32,822 bases of DNA from Christensenellaceae bacterium (lineage in GTDB: Bacteria; Bacillota; Clostridia; Christensenellales; UBA1242). The notes under the pieces are model-generated. The model was not told the DNA's origin, made no database searches, and saw nothing but the letters and a program-made list of their open reading frames with translations. Made by a program: the position numbers and the translations under genes. The DNA lies in the NCBI GenBank assembly GCA_031262595.1, contig JAISHI010000004.1, positions 1 through 32,822 on the forward strand, read 5' to 3'. This document shows, piece after piece, positions 2,461 to 22,912 of this stretch; position 1 is the first letter of the stretch, and each line of letters starts with the position of its first letter.

Positions 2461-3213
2461 ATGAAGAATAAAATACAAACCGCCGTGATAACTTGTGGCG
2501 GTTATGCGACGCGCCGTTTGCCGATAACGAAGGCGATTCCGAAGGAAATGTTGCCGATCGGGAATTTTCCAGCGATTCATTTTATATTAGAAGAACTCGA
2601 AAACGCGGGGATAAAGAACGTTTTGATTTTACTCGGGCGCGGCAGGGAAGCGCTAATGAATTATCTAGACGTTAACTTCGAGCTCGATGAGCATTTGCGC
2701 GCGAAAAATAAACGGACGCCGACGAACTTTTTTAAAGACCTAAACATTTTTTATAGAAGAGTTCCTATGCCACGAGGGGCTGCGGATTGCGTCTCGTTCG
2801 CGCGCGAGTTTGTTGGGCGGCGGAAATTTATTTTAGCGTTTTGCGATGATATTTATTTCGACGCGAACCCGACCGCGGAACTTATCGCCGACTTTAACGA
2901 AAACGGAAAACAAGCCATCACCGCAACCGAGATTTTAGGCGAAAAAATAAAAAATTACGGCGTTATAAAATGGCGCGCGGAAAACGAGATTGAAGTTATT
3001 AACGAAAAGCCGAAAAAAGCCGAGAGCCAGTTCATAGCCGGCGGGCGGTATCTTTTAGGCGATAAAGTTTTCGCGCGGATTGAGGCTTATCGAAAACTTT
3101 GCGAAAGTTGGAACCGCGAGATTTGTTTAACCGATATCCTAAACGACATCGCAGAGGAGGAAGGCTTGCGCGGAGTTCAAACCGCCGCGACCCGAATCGA
3201 CGTCGGGAGTTAG
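2461..3213 (+). CDS. GalU-like UTP-glucose-1-phosphate uridylyltransferase, short form
   Basis: Nucleotidyltransferase of the GalU/RfbA superfamily, expected to join a sugar 1-phosphate to a nucleotide (UDP-glucose in GalU) for cell-envelope sugars. Seen: a glycine-rich nucleotide loop with ATRRLP (about residues 14-22) followed by TKAIPKEMLPI, the GalU hallmark; an AFCDDI segment for metal and sugar phosphate near residue 121; and a C-terminal RIDVG motif. The GalU family normally continues some 40 residues past the D(V/T)G motif; here the protein stops one residue after it at 250 residues. No other frame continues the family sequence, so this looks like a genuinely short protein rather than a frameshift. 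The upstream region has a CATAAG at 2448-2453 at leaderless distance but no good -35, so promoter and substrate are uncertain. Confidence 0.75.
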   Translation: MKNKIQTAVITCGGYATRRLPITKAIPKEMLPIGNFPAIHFILEELENAGIKNVLILLGRGREALMNYLDVNFELDEHLRAKNKRTPTNFFKDLNIFYRRVPMPRGAADCVSFAREFVGRRKFILAFCDDIYFDANPTAELIADFNENGKQAITATEILGEKIKNYGVIKWRAENEIEVINEKPKKAESQFIAGGRYLLGDKVFARIEAYRKLCESWNREICLTDILNDIAEEEGLRGVQTAATRIDVGS

Positions 3214-6959: not shown

Positions 6960-6978
6960 TTTGTGCATAATGACGAAA
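6960..6978 (+). promoter_or_regulatory. Conserved 19-nt element upstream of poly-G promoter, copy 1
   Basis: TTTGTGCATAATGACGAAA here matches 18 of 19 positions with 21492-21510, and in both places exactly 18 nt separate it from the TTGACA box. It may bind a regulator or RNA polymerase, or be a relic of duplication. Confidence 0.5.
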
Positions 6979-6996
6979 TTTTTTTGAATAAAACCC

Positions 6997-7028
6997 TTGA
7001 CAAATTGCACGGGGGGGGGGGCTATACT
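6997..7028 (+). promoter_or_regulatory. Poly-G promoter, copy 1 (likely phase-variable)
   Basis: TTGACA (6997-7002) and TATACT (7023-7028) are separated by 20 nt, of which 11 are consecutive G (7011-7021). Both boxes are strong, but the spacer is about 3 nt longer than the optimum of 17. Slippage in the G tract would change the spacing and so the promoter strength, as known for porA of Neisseria meningitidis. Confidence 0.75.
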
Positions 7029-7056
7029 TTAATTAACTAAAAAATTAGTTAATTAA
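7029..7056 (+). repeat. Perfect 12-bp palindrome at the transcription start of the secreted-protein gene
   Basis: TTAATTAACTAA (7029-7040), AAAA, TTAGTTAATTAA (7045-7056). It begins directly after the -10 box and ends 3 nt before the GGAG ribosome site. It could be an operator overlapping +1 or a hairpin in the leader. The second poly-G promoter lacks it. Confidence 0.75.
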
Positions 7057-7068
7057 AAAGGAGTTTAT

Positions 7069-7722
7069 ATGAAAAAGAAAAACGTTATTTTGGCAACTGC
7101 TGCTTCGGCTATGTTGGCGTTAGCGCCTATGAACGCGGACGCGCAACTTCCGCAAGGCTCGCAAACATCAACGGATAAACCAATAAATGAGTTTATTGAA
7201 AAGGGGTATGTAGAAATTGGTCCTAATAAATACGCGATTGTAAATTTTGTGGGAGAGGGAGAGTACTTTGTTGACGAATTGCACGACAAAGATAAGAATG
7301 GTCAAAACAGTGAAGGCGATCTTCGTTATACGGATCACTATAGTGTAGGCGATGTTGATGCTGGTTTGCATGCTTCTGCTGTCGCGCAATATTTCAAAGA
7401 CGGTGGGTGGAAGTACATTAAAGAGCCTGAAAAGTACACAGTATATAGTCTTGATACTAAAAAAGGTCAATTTATATATAAAATGTATGAAAAGTTAGCC
7501 GATTTCGGGCGTGGGCCGGTTGACCCTGAAAATACAAAACGAATCCTAATTGAGTGGGGCTTGGTTAAGCCTAAAGCCGCACAAACCCTACAAGCCGCTG
7601 AAACTACACTAGAAGCCGCCGCAGACACCATAGACACCACAGACACTATAGACGCCACAGAAGCCGTTGAGTCTGAAGCTAAAACTAAGCTTGAAGCTAT
7701 AGAGGAAATCTTAAAACAATAA
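7069..7722 (+). CDS. Secreted protein of unknown function, first gene of poly-G operon
   Basis: Seen: a clear signal peptide (KKK, then a hydrophobic Ala/Leu-rich core, with a likely cleavage after ADA near residue 25). The mature part is acidic and rich in Tyr, Asp and Gly up to about residue 165. The tail (about 165-217) is Ala/Thr-rich with repeated ETTLEAA, DTIDTTDTID and EAVES-like units, probably a flexible or helical stalk. No catalytic motif or anchor was recognised. The ORF is preceded by GGAG at good spacing and a leader of about 34 nt, unlike neighbouring host genes. Codon use (more GAT, AAT, AAA) also differs from host genes. The next gene follows after 9 nt with a GGAGG site, so the two are co-expressed. 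Function unknown. Confidence 0.7.
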   Translation: MKKKNVILATAASAMLALAPMNADAQLPQGSQTSTDKPINEFIEKGYVEIGPNKYAIVNFVGEGEYFVDELHDKDKNGQNSEGDLRYTDHYSVGDVDAGLHASAVAQYFKDGGWKYIKEPEKYTVYSLDTKKGQFIYKMYEKLADFGRGPVDPENTKRILIEWGLVKPKAAQTLQAAETTLEAAADTIDTTDTIDATEAVESEAKTKLEAIEEILKQ

Positions 7723-7731
7723 GGAGGTAAA

Positions 7732-8583
7732 ATGGCAAGAGATGCATACGGTGCGCTTATTAAGAAGTTTGAAAAAATAAACCCAAACCCTTCTCCGTTC
7801 GCTAGCGATAACTATCATTACGCAGCTTCTATTGTAGACGCGCTTGTTGGGGGTGGAGGACCTATTAATAGTGAAGGACTTACGGTTAACGAAGCTGAGA
7901 GGCTTCTTATAGAAGTACCAAGCGATCTATTTAAGATCCTTACCGATAACAAAAAAAGTTATCATAAGTATTTTGAATATTCCTTAAGAGCCGATGCTAA
8001 GGCCTTGCTCGAAAAGCTTAATAGCGCAAGTGTTGAACCCGAAACGCGAGAGGGCTCTTCACGCGCTTCACGTATTAAAAGTTCGCTTATTCGCCGTGCA
8101 GAAAACCTTAAAAATGATGTGCAGACTTTTTTTGAAGATAAGAAAGAAGCAAAATCCGCGGCGGAGGCCGAAGCGCTAGCCGAGCCAAAAAATAACTTTG
8201 CTAATTTTGATGCGCTTGTTAGGAAGTTTGAAGAAAATACTAGCCCTATAACTTCTCCTTATGACCATCCATACAACACACCTCCTTATGAATACGCAGA
8301 CCCTCATAGACACGCAAACGTCATTATTCGTATTCTTTTAAACGTATATAAGAGCGAGCATGTGGAGCAACTTATTAAAGAATCATCGAGTGATATTGCT
8401 GAAGCTGCTATAAAGAGTTGCCAAACATATAAAAATGGTAGCGTGGGGTATATACCATACACCATACACGAAGGTGTCCATCCATTGATTAAAAAAATTA
8501 AAGAGAAAGAGATAGAACAAACACAAGAAGAAAAAGCCGTCGAACCAGCCCAAGCAGAACCGCAACTCGAACCGACACGCTAA
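7732..8583 (+). CDS. Two-repeat protein of unknown function (paralog of the gene at 21586)
   Basis: Seen: 283 residues with two related halves. The first begins near residue 6 (ALIKKFEKINPNPSPF) and the second near 160 (ALVRKFEENTSPITSPY); both continue into Pro/Tyr-rich loops, a helix with ANxIIxxLL or ASIVDALV, and a further helical segment. Between them lies a basic, Arg/Lys-rich and Ala/Glu-rich linker (about 105-155). The tail is Gln/Glu/Pro-rich. There is no signal peptide or membrane helix. It is closely related to the protein at 21586-22419: the C-terminal 90 residues are almost the same, while the loops after NPNP and before the LLEK helix have diverged and carry insertions. Translation begins at a GGAGG site 9 nt after the secreted-protein gene. 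Function unknown; phase-variable expression is inferred from the promoter. Confidence 0.65.
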   Translation: MARDAYGALIKKFEKINPNPSPFASDNYHYAASIVDALVGGGGPINSEGLTVNEAERLLIEVPSDLFKILTDNKKSYHKYFEYSLRADAKALLEKLNSASVEPETREGSSRASRIKSSLIRRAENLKNDVQTFFEDKKEAKSAAEAEALAEPKNNFANFDALVRKFEENTSPITSPYDHPYNTPPYEYADPHRHANVIIRILLNVYKSEHVEQLIKESSSDIAEAAIKSCQTYKNGSVGYIPYTIHEGVHPLIKKIKEKEIEQTQEEKAVEPAQAEPQLEPTR

Positions 8584-8604
8584 ACCTAACGAACTTATAA
8601 ATAA

Positions 8605-8632
8605 AAATCCCGCGATAATCCGCGGGGTTTTT
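8605..8632 (+). terminator. Terminator of poly-G operon, copy 1
   Basis: CCCGCG (8609-8614), six-nt loop, CGCGGG (8621-8626), then T5. The same hairpin follows the paralog at 22448-22473. The T-tract overlaps the stop codon of the rnhA remnant. Confidence 0.75.
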
Positions 8633-8730
8633 AATGATTTTTATATTCCGCGACGGCGAGTTCGTCGCAACGGTTATTAAATTCATTGCTGGCGTGGCCT
8701 TTTACCCAAATAAAAATCGGCGGGAATATA
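8631..8730 (-). pseudogene. 3' remnant of rnhA carried by the duplication
   Basis: Read on the minus strand, this segment encodes the last ~30 residues of ribonuclease HI: FIWVKGHASNEFNN, then RCDELAVAEYKNH and a stop. It matches the intact rnhA at 22472-22912 almost residue for residue, with a few synonymous and non-synonymous changes. Upstream of about 8730 similarity ends abruptly, and no start or catalytic N-terminal half is present, so it cannot make RNase H. Its position directly behind the two-repeat gene mirrors the position of intact rnhA behind the paralog. Confidence 0.85.
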
Positions 8731-21491: not shown

Positions 21492-21510
21492 TTTGTGCAC
21501 AATGACGAAA
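21492..21510 (+). promoter_or_regulatory. Conserved 19-nt element upstream of poly-G promoter, copy 2
   Basis: TTTGTGCACAATGACGAAA, one mismatch to 6960-6978, again 18 nt before TTGACA. Confidence 0.5.
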
Positions 21511-21528
21511 GATTTTTATAAAAAACGC

Positions 21529-21556
21529 TTGACAAATGCTCGGGGGGGGGTATTTT
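21529..21556 (+). promoter_or_regulatory. Poly-G promoter, copy 2 (likely phase-variable)
   Basis: TTGACA (21529-21534) and TATTTT (21551-21556) are 16 nt apart, of which nine are consecutive G (21542-21550). The spacing is close to the optimum, so this copy should be active in the assembled state. Only nine G are present against 11 in the other copy. Confidence 0.75.
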
Positions 21557-21585
21557 AACTCAAAATACATAAAAAAGAGGTAAAT

Positions 21586-22419
21586 ATGGCAAGAGATGCA
21601 TACGACGCGCTTATTAAGAAGTTTAAAAAAATAAACCCAAACCCTTTTATATCTAATTATTATAACTATAGTTATGCGGATTCTATTGTTAACGCTCTTG
21701 TAGGGAATGAAAAAGAACTCACGGGCGACGAAGCCAAGAGGCTTTTCAAAGAAGCACCAGGGGAGCTCTTTAAAATTCTTACAGATAATAAAAAGGGTTA
21801 TCATGAGTATTTTAACTATTCTTTAAGAGCCGATGCTAAGGCATTGCTCGAAAAGATTAATAGCGCAAGTGTTGAACCTGAAACGCAAGAGGGTTCTTCG
21901 CGCGCTTCACGTATTAAAAATTCGCTTATTCGCCGTGCAAAAAATCTTAAAAATGATGTGCAGACTCTTTTTGAAAATAAGAAAGAAGCAAAATCCGCAG
22001 CTGAGGCTGAATGGGAAGCTGACTCAAAAAATAATTTTGCTAATTTTGATACGCTTGTTAAGAATTTTAAAGAAAATACTAGCCCTATAACTTCTCCTTA
22101 TAACCAGCCATACAACATAATCCCTTATGAATACCCAGACCCTTATGAACATGCAGACGTCATTATTCGTATTCTTTTAAACGCATATAAGAGCGAGCAT
22201 GTTGAGCAACTTATTAAAGAATCATCGAGTGATATTGCTGAAGCTGCTATAAAGAGTTGCCAAACATATAAAAATGGTAGCGTGGGGTATATACCAGGCA
22301 TCATATACAACGGCGTCTATCCGTTGATTAAAAAAATTAAAGAGAAAGAGATAGAACAAACGCAAGAAAACGCCGCCGAATCAGCCCAAGCCGAAAAGCA
22401 ACCAGAGCGGACTGTATAA
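21586..22419 (+). CDS. Two-repeat protein of unknown function (paralog of the gene at 7732)
   Basis: 277 residues, close relative of the protein at 7732-8583. Seen: the same two-half layout, with ALIKKFKKINPNPF near the N-terminus and TLVKNFKENTSPITSPY near 155, a basic linker and an Ala/Glu/Gln-rich tail. Conserved runs include SASVEPE, GSSRASRIK and, near-identical, KSEHVEQLIKESSSDIAEAA. The loop after NPF, the segment around residues 40-60 and the loop near YIPGIIYNGVY differ from the paralog. No secretion signal. It has its own poly-G promoter and an AAGAGG ribosome site; the secreted partner gene is absent from this copy. Codon use is unlike the host's. Function unknown. Confidence 0.65.
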   Translation: MARDAYDALIKKFKKINPNPFISNYYNYSYADSIVNALVGNEKELTGDEAKRLFKEAPGELFKILTDNKKGYHEYFNYSLRADAKALLEKINSASVEPETQEGSSRASRIKNSLIRRAKNLKNDVQTLFENKKEAKSAAEAEWEADSKNNFANFDTLVKNFKENTSPITSPYNQPYNIIPYEYPDPYEHADVIIRILLNAYKSEHVEQLIKESSSDIAEAAIKSCQTYKNGSVGYIPGIIYNGVYPLIKKIKEKEIEQTQENAAESAQAEKQPERTV

Positions 22420-22447
22420 GTCTAACCAAGCCATACTAATAAGTAAA

Positions 22448-22473
22448 TCCCGCGACAACCTCGCGGGATTTTT
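22448..22473 (+). terminator. Terminator of poly-G unit, copy 2
   Basis: TCCCGCG (22448-22454), loop of seven, CGCGGGA (22462-22468), then T5. The T-tract runs into the rnhA stop codon, the same layout as copy 1. Confidence 0.75.
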
Positions 22474-22912
22474 AATGACTTTTATACTCCGCGACGGCGA
22501 GTTCGTCGCAACGGTTGTTGAATTCGTTGCTGGCGTGGCCTTTTACCCAAATAAAAGTCGGCGCGAATTTTTCGGCAAGCTCGGCGAGGCGTTCCCAAAG
22601 GTCGCGGTTCTTAACGGGCTGTTTTTGGGAATTTTTCCAAGCGTTTTTTTGCCAAGATTTAAGCCAACCTTTATTAAAAGCGTCGACGACGTAGCTACTA
22701 TCGCTATAAATTTCGGTTTTAACCTTAACTTTAACCGCCTCGAGCCCCTTTATAACCGCGGTTAGTTCCATGCGGTTGTTGGTTGTTTCGCGCTCGAACC
22801 CCGAGAGTTCCTTTCGCTTGTCGCCGTAAACTAAAACGCAAGCCCAACCGCCTTTGCCGGGGTTTCCGCTGCAAGCGCCGTCGGTGTAAATCTTTAAAAC
22901 TTGTTCGCCCAT
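22472..22912 (-). CDS. rnhA: Ribonuclease HI
   Basis: Cleaves the RNA strand of RNA-DNA hybrids, using two metal ions. Seen: YTDGACSGNPG (Asp11), NNRMELTAV (Glu49), IYSDSSYVV (Asp71), VKGHASNEFNNRCDELA (His126 and Asp136), giving the complete catalytic set. 146 residues is normal. The ATG directly abuts the TAA of the preceding membrane protein gene, suggesting coupled translation. The last ~30 codons are repeated in the remnant at 8631-8730, and this copy is the functional one. Confidence 0.95.
   Translation of the reverse strand: MGEQVLKIYTDGACSGNPGKGGWACVLVYGDKRKELSGFERETTNNRMELTAVIKGLEAVKVKVKTEIYSDSSYVVDAFNKGWLKSWQKNAWKNSQKQPVKNRDLWERLAELAEKFAPTFIWVKGHASNEFNNRCDELAVAEYKSH

Follow-up and report, generated by a model that had tools for sequence, protein, structure and literature searches.

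The window, meaning the whole stretch of DNA analysed, covered 32,822 bases from the start of contig C5 in a genome of 811 kb (29 contigs, 83% complete), which is the single genome of its genus in the collection searched. Two paralogous genes lie in the window downstream of promoters with a run of Gs between the -35 and -10 boxes, and the following features were assigned to the two places.

21492..21510, forward strand: upstream element TTTGTGCACAATGACGAAA, also present ahead of 23S rRNA, rpoB and infA
21529..21534, forward strand: -35 box TTGACA (pattern match)
21542..21550, forward strand: G9 tract inside the promoter spacer (pattern match and recurrence in the genome and the family)
21551..21556, forward strand: -10 box TATTTT (pattern match; spacer 16)
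21586..22419, forward strand: gene of an orphan two-repeat protein of 277 aa, no signal peptide seen, no Pfam domain over the cut-off
6960..6978, forward strand: the upstream element again, preceding the other copy
6997..7028, forward strand: paralogous poly-G promoter (TTGACA 6997-7002, G11 7011-7021, TATACT 7023-7028)
7069..7722, forward strand: gene of a 217-aa protein with a signal-peptide-like N-terminus, first behind the G11 promoter
7732..8583, forward strand: gene of the 283-aa paralogue of the 277-aa protein, second behind the G11 promoter
8640..8727, reverse strand: 3' fragment of rnhA, brought along by the duplication

At the G9 promoter (21529-21556) seven nucleotides (aatgctc, 21535-21541) separate TTGACA from the nine Gs, and the spacer between TTGACA and TATTTT amounts to 16 nt (21535-21550), so that a homopolymer of at least eight lies between -35 and -10. 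TATTTT agrees with TATAAT at four of six positions and is a weak -10. Between the end of the promoter and the ATG at 21586, where the gene (21586-22419) begins, lie 29 nt, with GAGG at 21577-21580. A first-pass annotation of the window had read the two boxes, the nine Gs and the 16-nt spacing from the letters, and pattern matching confirmed all of them. It had also described the same arrangement at both copies with tracts of 9 and 11; the layout of TTGACA, G tract and -10 box and both tract lengths were recovered, but the spacer of the G11 promoter is 20 nt and not 16. Total spacing is near the 17-nt optimum in both cases, so that one to three steps would switch the promoter. The leader RNA had no better structure than shuffled sequences.

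The G9 promoter in the window is not a product of chance. Runs of seven or more Gs were confined to two places in the window, G9 and G11 (8 overlapping matches), and none of 100 shuffles of the window reached those 8 matches. The pattern TTGACA-N3..14-G8-N0..2-TATNNT matched twice in the window and never in 100 dinucleotide shuffles.

Throughout the host genome, 28 overlapping matches to tracts of at least eight Gs merged into 12 places. Eleven of these tracts lay between a -35 box (TTGACA in ten, TTGACT in one) and a -10-like hexamer of different genes, with an ATG 12 to about 60 nt past the tract and unrelated genes downstream. The strict pattern fitted eight of the eleven promoters, with spacers of 18, 20, 16, 17, 18, 19, 18 and 17 nt, while the other three fitted more loosely, their -10 being assigned by eye. 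The genes behind the eleven encode secreted or lipoprotein-like proteins (by eye), an amino-acid permease (AA_permease_2, E 4e-42) and orphans. Only 5 of the 11 first genes had 2.0 or more in a crude score of N-terminal hydrophobicity, taken as a sign of signal- or membrane-like sequence, and a sixth with a score of 1.5 looked signal-like by eye. The twelfth run, a G10 at C6:47706 (L012, locus 1501-1510), is located inside a lipoprotein-like gene whose frame breaks at the G10, a long open frame following in another phase; this is a classic site for a translational switch and likely is one.

The first-pass annotation had suggested searching related genomes for TTGACA, a G tract and TATNNT. The strict layout was found in 60 of 309 family genomes, including the host genome, and in 19 of 42 genera; it was absent from the other 249 genomes, and the reversed pattern, used as a control, occurred in none of the 309. 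Together with the shuffles and the 11 of 12 host tracts, these counts bear out the annotation's view that the tract is maintained and not accidental. A wider search gave at least 80 loci; no frequency for genomes beyond the family is drawn from it. Absence or interruption of the tract in relatives keeping the gene had been named as counter-evidence, and this was checked on an ABC-transporter gene that, within its genus, only 2 of 112 genomes have (E 1e-100 or better). Both genomes carry the tract, as G9 and G8, and the rest of the spacer is identical, an outcome in favour of the annotation.

The upstream element (TTTGTGCANAATGACGAAA, at 21492-21510 and 6960-6978) was found at nine places in the host genome with up to three mismatches, and the reversed control gave none. 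Three of the nine belong to poly-G promoters, one lies about 500 nt before a 23S rRNA gene, and others precede rpoB and infA, both named by eye from their translations. The element was therefore rejected as a marker specific to poly-G promoters. As it is common to the promoters of rRNA, rpoB and infA, the poly-G promoters would be tied to the housekeeping polymerase, and those with the element appear to be strong.

The two copies in the window arose by duplication. Segments 7718-8727 and 21571-22568 share 84% identity. Their homology extends into rnhA, of which copy 1 has only the 3' fragment; copy 1 was therefore probably derived from the place at 21.6 kb. The promoter regions (6960-7019 and 21492-21550) are 85% alike, and this likeness stops at the end of the G tract. 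Positions 6987-7109 of copy 1 also match C8:54007 across its promoter, leader and gene start (82.5%, from just before the -35), and downstream of the tract the upstream region of copy 1 matches the C8:54007 place alone, so that 7020-7717 looks as if it had been inserted behind the G tract. The C8:54007 place has a G9 promoter as well, and the gene that follows it is related to the 217-aa gene at 7069..7722. Judged from these matches, copy 1 is a mosaic whose pieces meet at or close to the G tract. The claim that the arrangement is independent of operon context is weakened by the mosaic and by the sharing of the promoter up to the tract end between two duplicates; independent evidence that the tract is maintained is supplied by the nine other host promoters and by the family. 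The 277-aa and 283-aa proteins are 79% identical. With dN at 0.118 and dS at 0.30 both paralogues were probably kept functional, and some windows of 40 codons in the gene's second half, with few sites, had dN above dS.

Transcriptional phase variation through slippage in the promoter spacer is the best reading of the poly-G promoters, and we regard it as highly probable. The G9 tract would be the adjustable spacer of a sigma-70-type promoter: Gs would be gained or lost by replication slippage, the distance between -35 and -10 would move around the 17-nt optimum, and the gene would go up or down reversibly in single cells. Ordinary TTGACA/TATAAT promoters of three relatives had a spacer of 17 in 76 of 138 cases (150 matches, namely all from G215 and G288 and the first 44 of 63 from G248, minus 12 with homopolymers), and 17 is therefore supported as the working optimum. 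As assembled, the G9 promoter (spacer 16) would be near-active and its G11 paralogue (spacer 20) weak or off. Since by the 17-nt rule G9 is one base short and G11 three too long, with assembled homopolymer lengths that may be off by one, it may well be that the two copies differ in expression state, as had been proposed; that a cell mixes variants of the two-repeat protein in this way is speculative. From the sequences we infer slippage in the living population, a change in transcription and a benefit from diversity. A MutS_I domain was found at C19:15936 in an open frame of 845 aa, so a mutator background aiding slippage is lacking, and loss of mutS was rejected as its driver. Other points against the phase-variation reading are the weak -10 of the G9 promoter, the absence of the strict layout from 249 of 309 family genomes, the interrupted tracts of relatives and the small share (5 of 11) of host first genes with a high N-terminal score.

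A fixed promoter, in which the G-rich spacer would only set basal strength or DNA shape and the gene would not switch, is improbable. Interrupted and hence stable tracts do occur in like promoters of two relatives (G215:C2, G215:C7 and G288:C44), and tracts can therefore be lost or locked. However, a mixed G-rich spacer would suffice for strength, whereas pure runs of 8-15 Gs recur, and in the host genome the tracts between TTGAC and a T consist of eleven with 8-11 Gs and one G6, with no G7. When promoters of one genome were grouped by identical non-G spacer, the number of Gs varied within each of the 12 groups. The tract therefore changes faster than its flanks, in agreement with the earlier view that its length is the variable part.

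It is still less probable that the tract mainly serves as a protein or structure site (repressor, G-quadruplex) or as a recombination junction, with spacing being secondary. The join of the mosaic copy 1 at or near the G tract would fit this explanation, as would the excess of G over C, 60 against 14 of 309 genomes; yet C-tract versions do exist (two genera, L181-L185, none in the host genome), and the lengths of tract and flank compensate, as expected if total spacing matters. Among 131 family matches, which do not include one overlapping second match and two further matches of G142, the mean spacer was 17.1 with tracts of G8-G15, and the correlation between G number and remaining spacer was negative (r -0.33, permutation p 5e-5; when each genome contributed one row, r -0.27, p 0.018). 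A sequencing or assembly artefact is hardly credible, for although homopolymers are miscounted by short reads and the counts of 9 and 11 may be wrong by one, the eleven tracts are spread over the two contig strands (5 forward, 6 reverse) and have promoter orientation every time, and 60 genomes show the layout.

A shortage of spacer 17 was seen among poly-G promoters with TATAAT, which had it in 3 of 60 cases (genus g34: 0 of 29), compared with 76 of the 138 ordinary promoters. With G numbers shuffled within genera p was 0.025, rising to 0.11 when repeated flanks were removed, and 2 of 8 spacers of the strict host set were 17. The shortage is partly a lineage effect and was set aside as support.

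An extension of the phase-variation reading, which we offer tentatively and consider rather doubtful, is a modular, exchangeable switch cassette in this Clostridia-like family with genomes of about 1 Mb. Genes would be put behind a shared module of -35 box and G tract, sometimes joined at the tract, and the majority length would be kept at a distance of one or two bases from the 17-nt optimum, which would leave each gene low in most cells and expressed in a few.

Promoter switches made of homopolymers are familiar chiefly from a small number of pathogens. According to the available text of PMC7864442, which cites van der Ende 1995, porA of Neisseria meningitidis has a poly-G tract between -35 and -10, as do the host promoters, and its transcription is lost when the 17-nt spacing is shortened. 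That is a single outer-membrane gene of a proteobacterium and was shown by experiment, whereas eleven promoters of a reduced Clostridia-like genome, known from sequence alone, are concerned here. The same text places a poly-G tract likewise between -35 and -10 of tp0126 of Treponema pallidum, with a total of 17 nt being best (PMC7864442); tp0126 encodes an OmpW homologue of the outer membrane and was tested by experiment, whereas the gene here is an orphan without a visible signal peptide. By their anatomy the poly-G promoters of the host genome belong to the porA/tp0126 type. In Neisseria fetA a spacer homopolymer alters promoter strength, as stated in the available part of PMC5320596; this tract is poly-C, a version seen in 14 of the 309 family genomes and not in the host genome. 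The accessible text on the pilus of Bifidobacterium breve, a Gram-positive gut bacterium, describes a G10-G11 slippage switch and mentions further G-tracts in promoter spacers (PMC9187656). The tracts studied there, as far as that text goes, lie in coding sequence, whereas those described here lie in promoter spacers.

The mechanism is thus already known, and its setting is new and widespread, with eleven poly-G promoters in one reduced genome and a wide occurrence in a family of uncultured bacteria. A literature search, with most subscription papers beyond its reach, found no account of promoters of this type from these Clostridia-like genomes. If the switching is true, expression in these organisms would be heterogeneous by design and hidden by consensus genomes.

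No relative of the 277-aa protein was found outside the host genome. Its gene occurred in 1 of 297 family genomes, the host, and a profile built from two rows matched only the host genome among 396 genomes of the order. Pfam domains over the cut-off were found neither in it nor in the paralogue, the best hit in a PDB search had an E value of only 0.39, and phage, viral and genome collections gave no relative, some of these searches having used exact short seeds, which can miss distant ones. Its hydrophobic N-terminus score was below 2.0, with no visible signal peptide, and a structure model with a mean pLDDT of 37.3 was discarded as worthless.

In the family, 30 of 61 first genes behind the promoters had a strongly hydrophobic N-terminus by the crude score. 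Ten proteins, picked for length and variety, were scanned for domains: five had BspA-type leucine-rich repeats and one was InlB-like, and the remainder were a GDSL lipase, a WG-repeat protein, an ABC ATPase and a DUF6273 protein. Because of the 30 of 61 N-termini and the 6 of 10 BspA- or InlB-like proteins, a switching of surface features would fit about half of the genes.

Many of the family promoters lie close to contig ends (L188, L213-L215, L217, L219, L221 and L224), a position that suggests repeated gene families which break assemblies. Outside the family, Streptobacillus notomytis (L090) has two poly-G promoters, at 3086 and 4296, 1.2 kb apart, which precede related proteins that are 37% identical. 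An AT-rich inverted repeat, TTAACTAAAAAATTAGTTAA, is present in the leader just 3' of the -10 of the G11 promoter (window positions 7033-7052) and again in the leader of L019; it is a possible operator or mRNA 5' stem.
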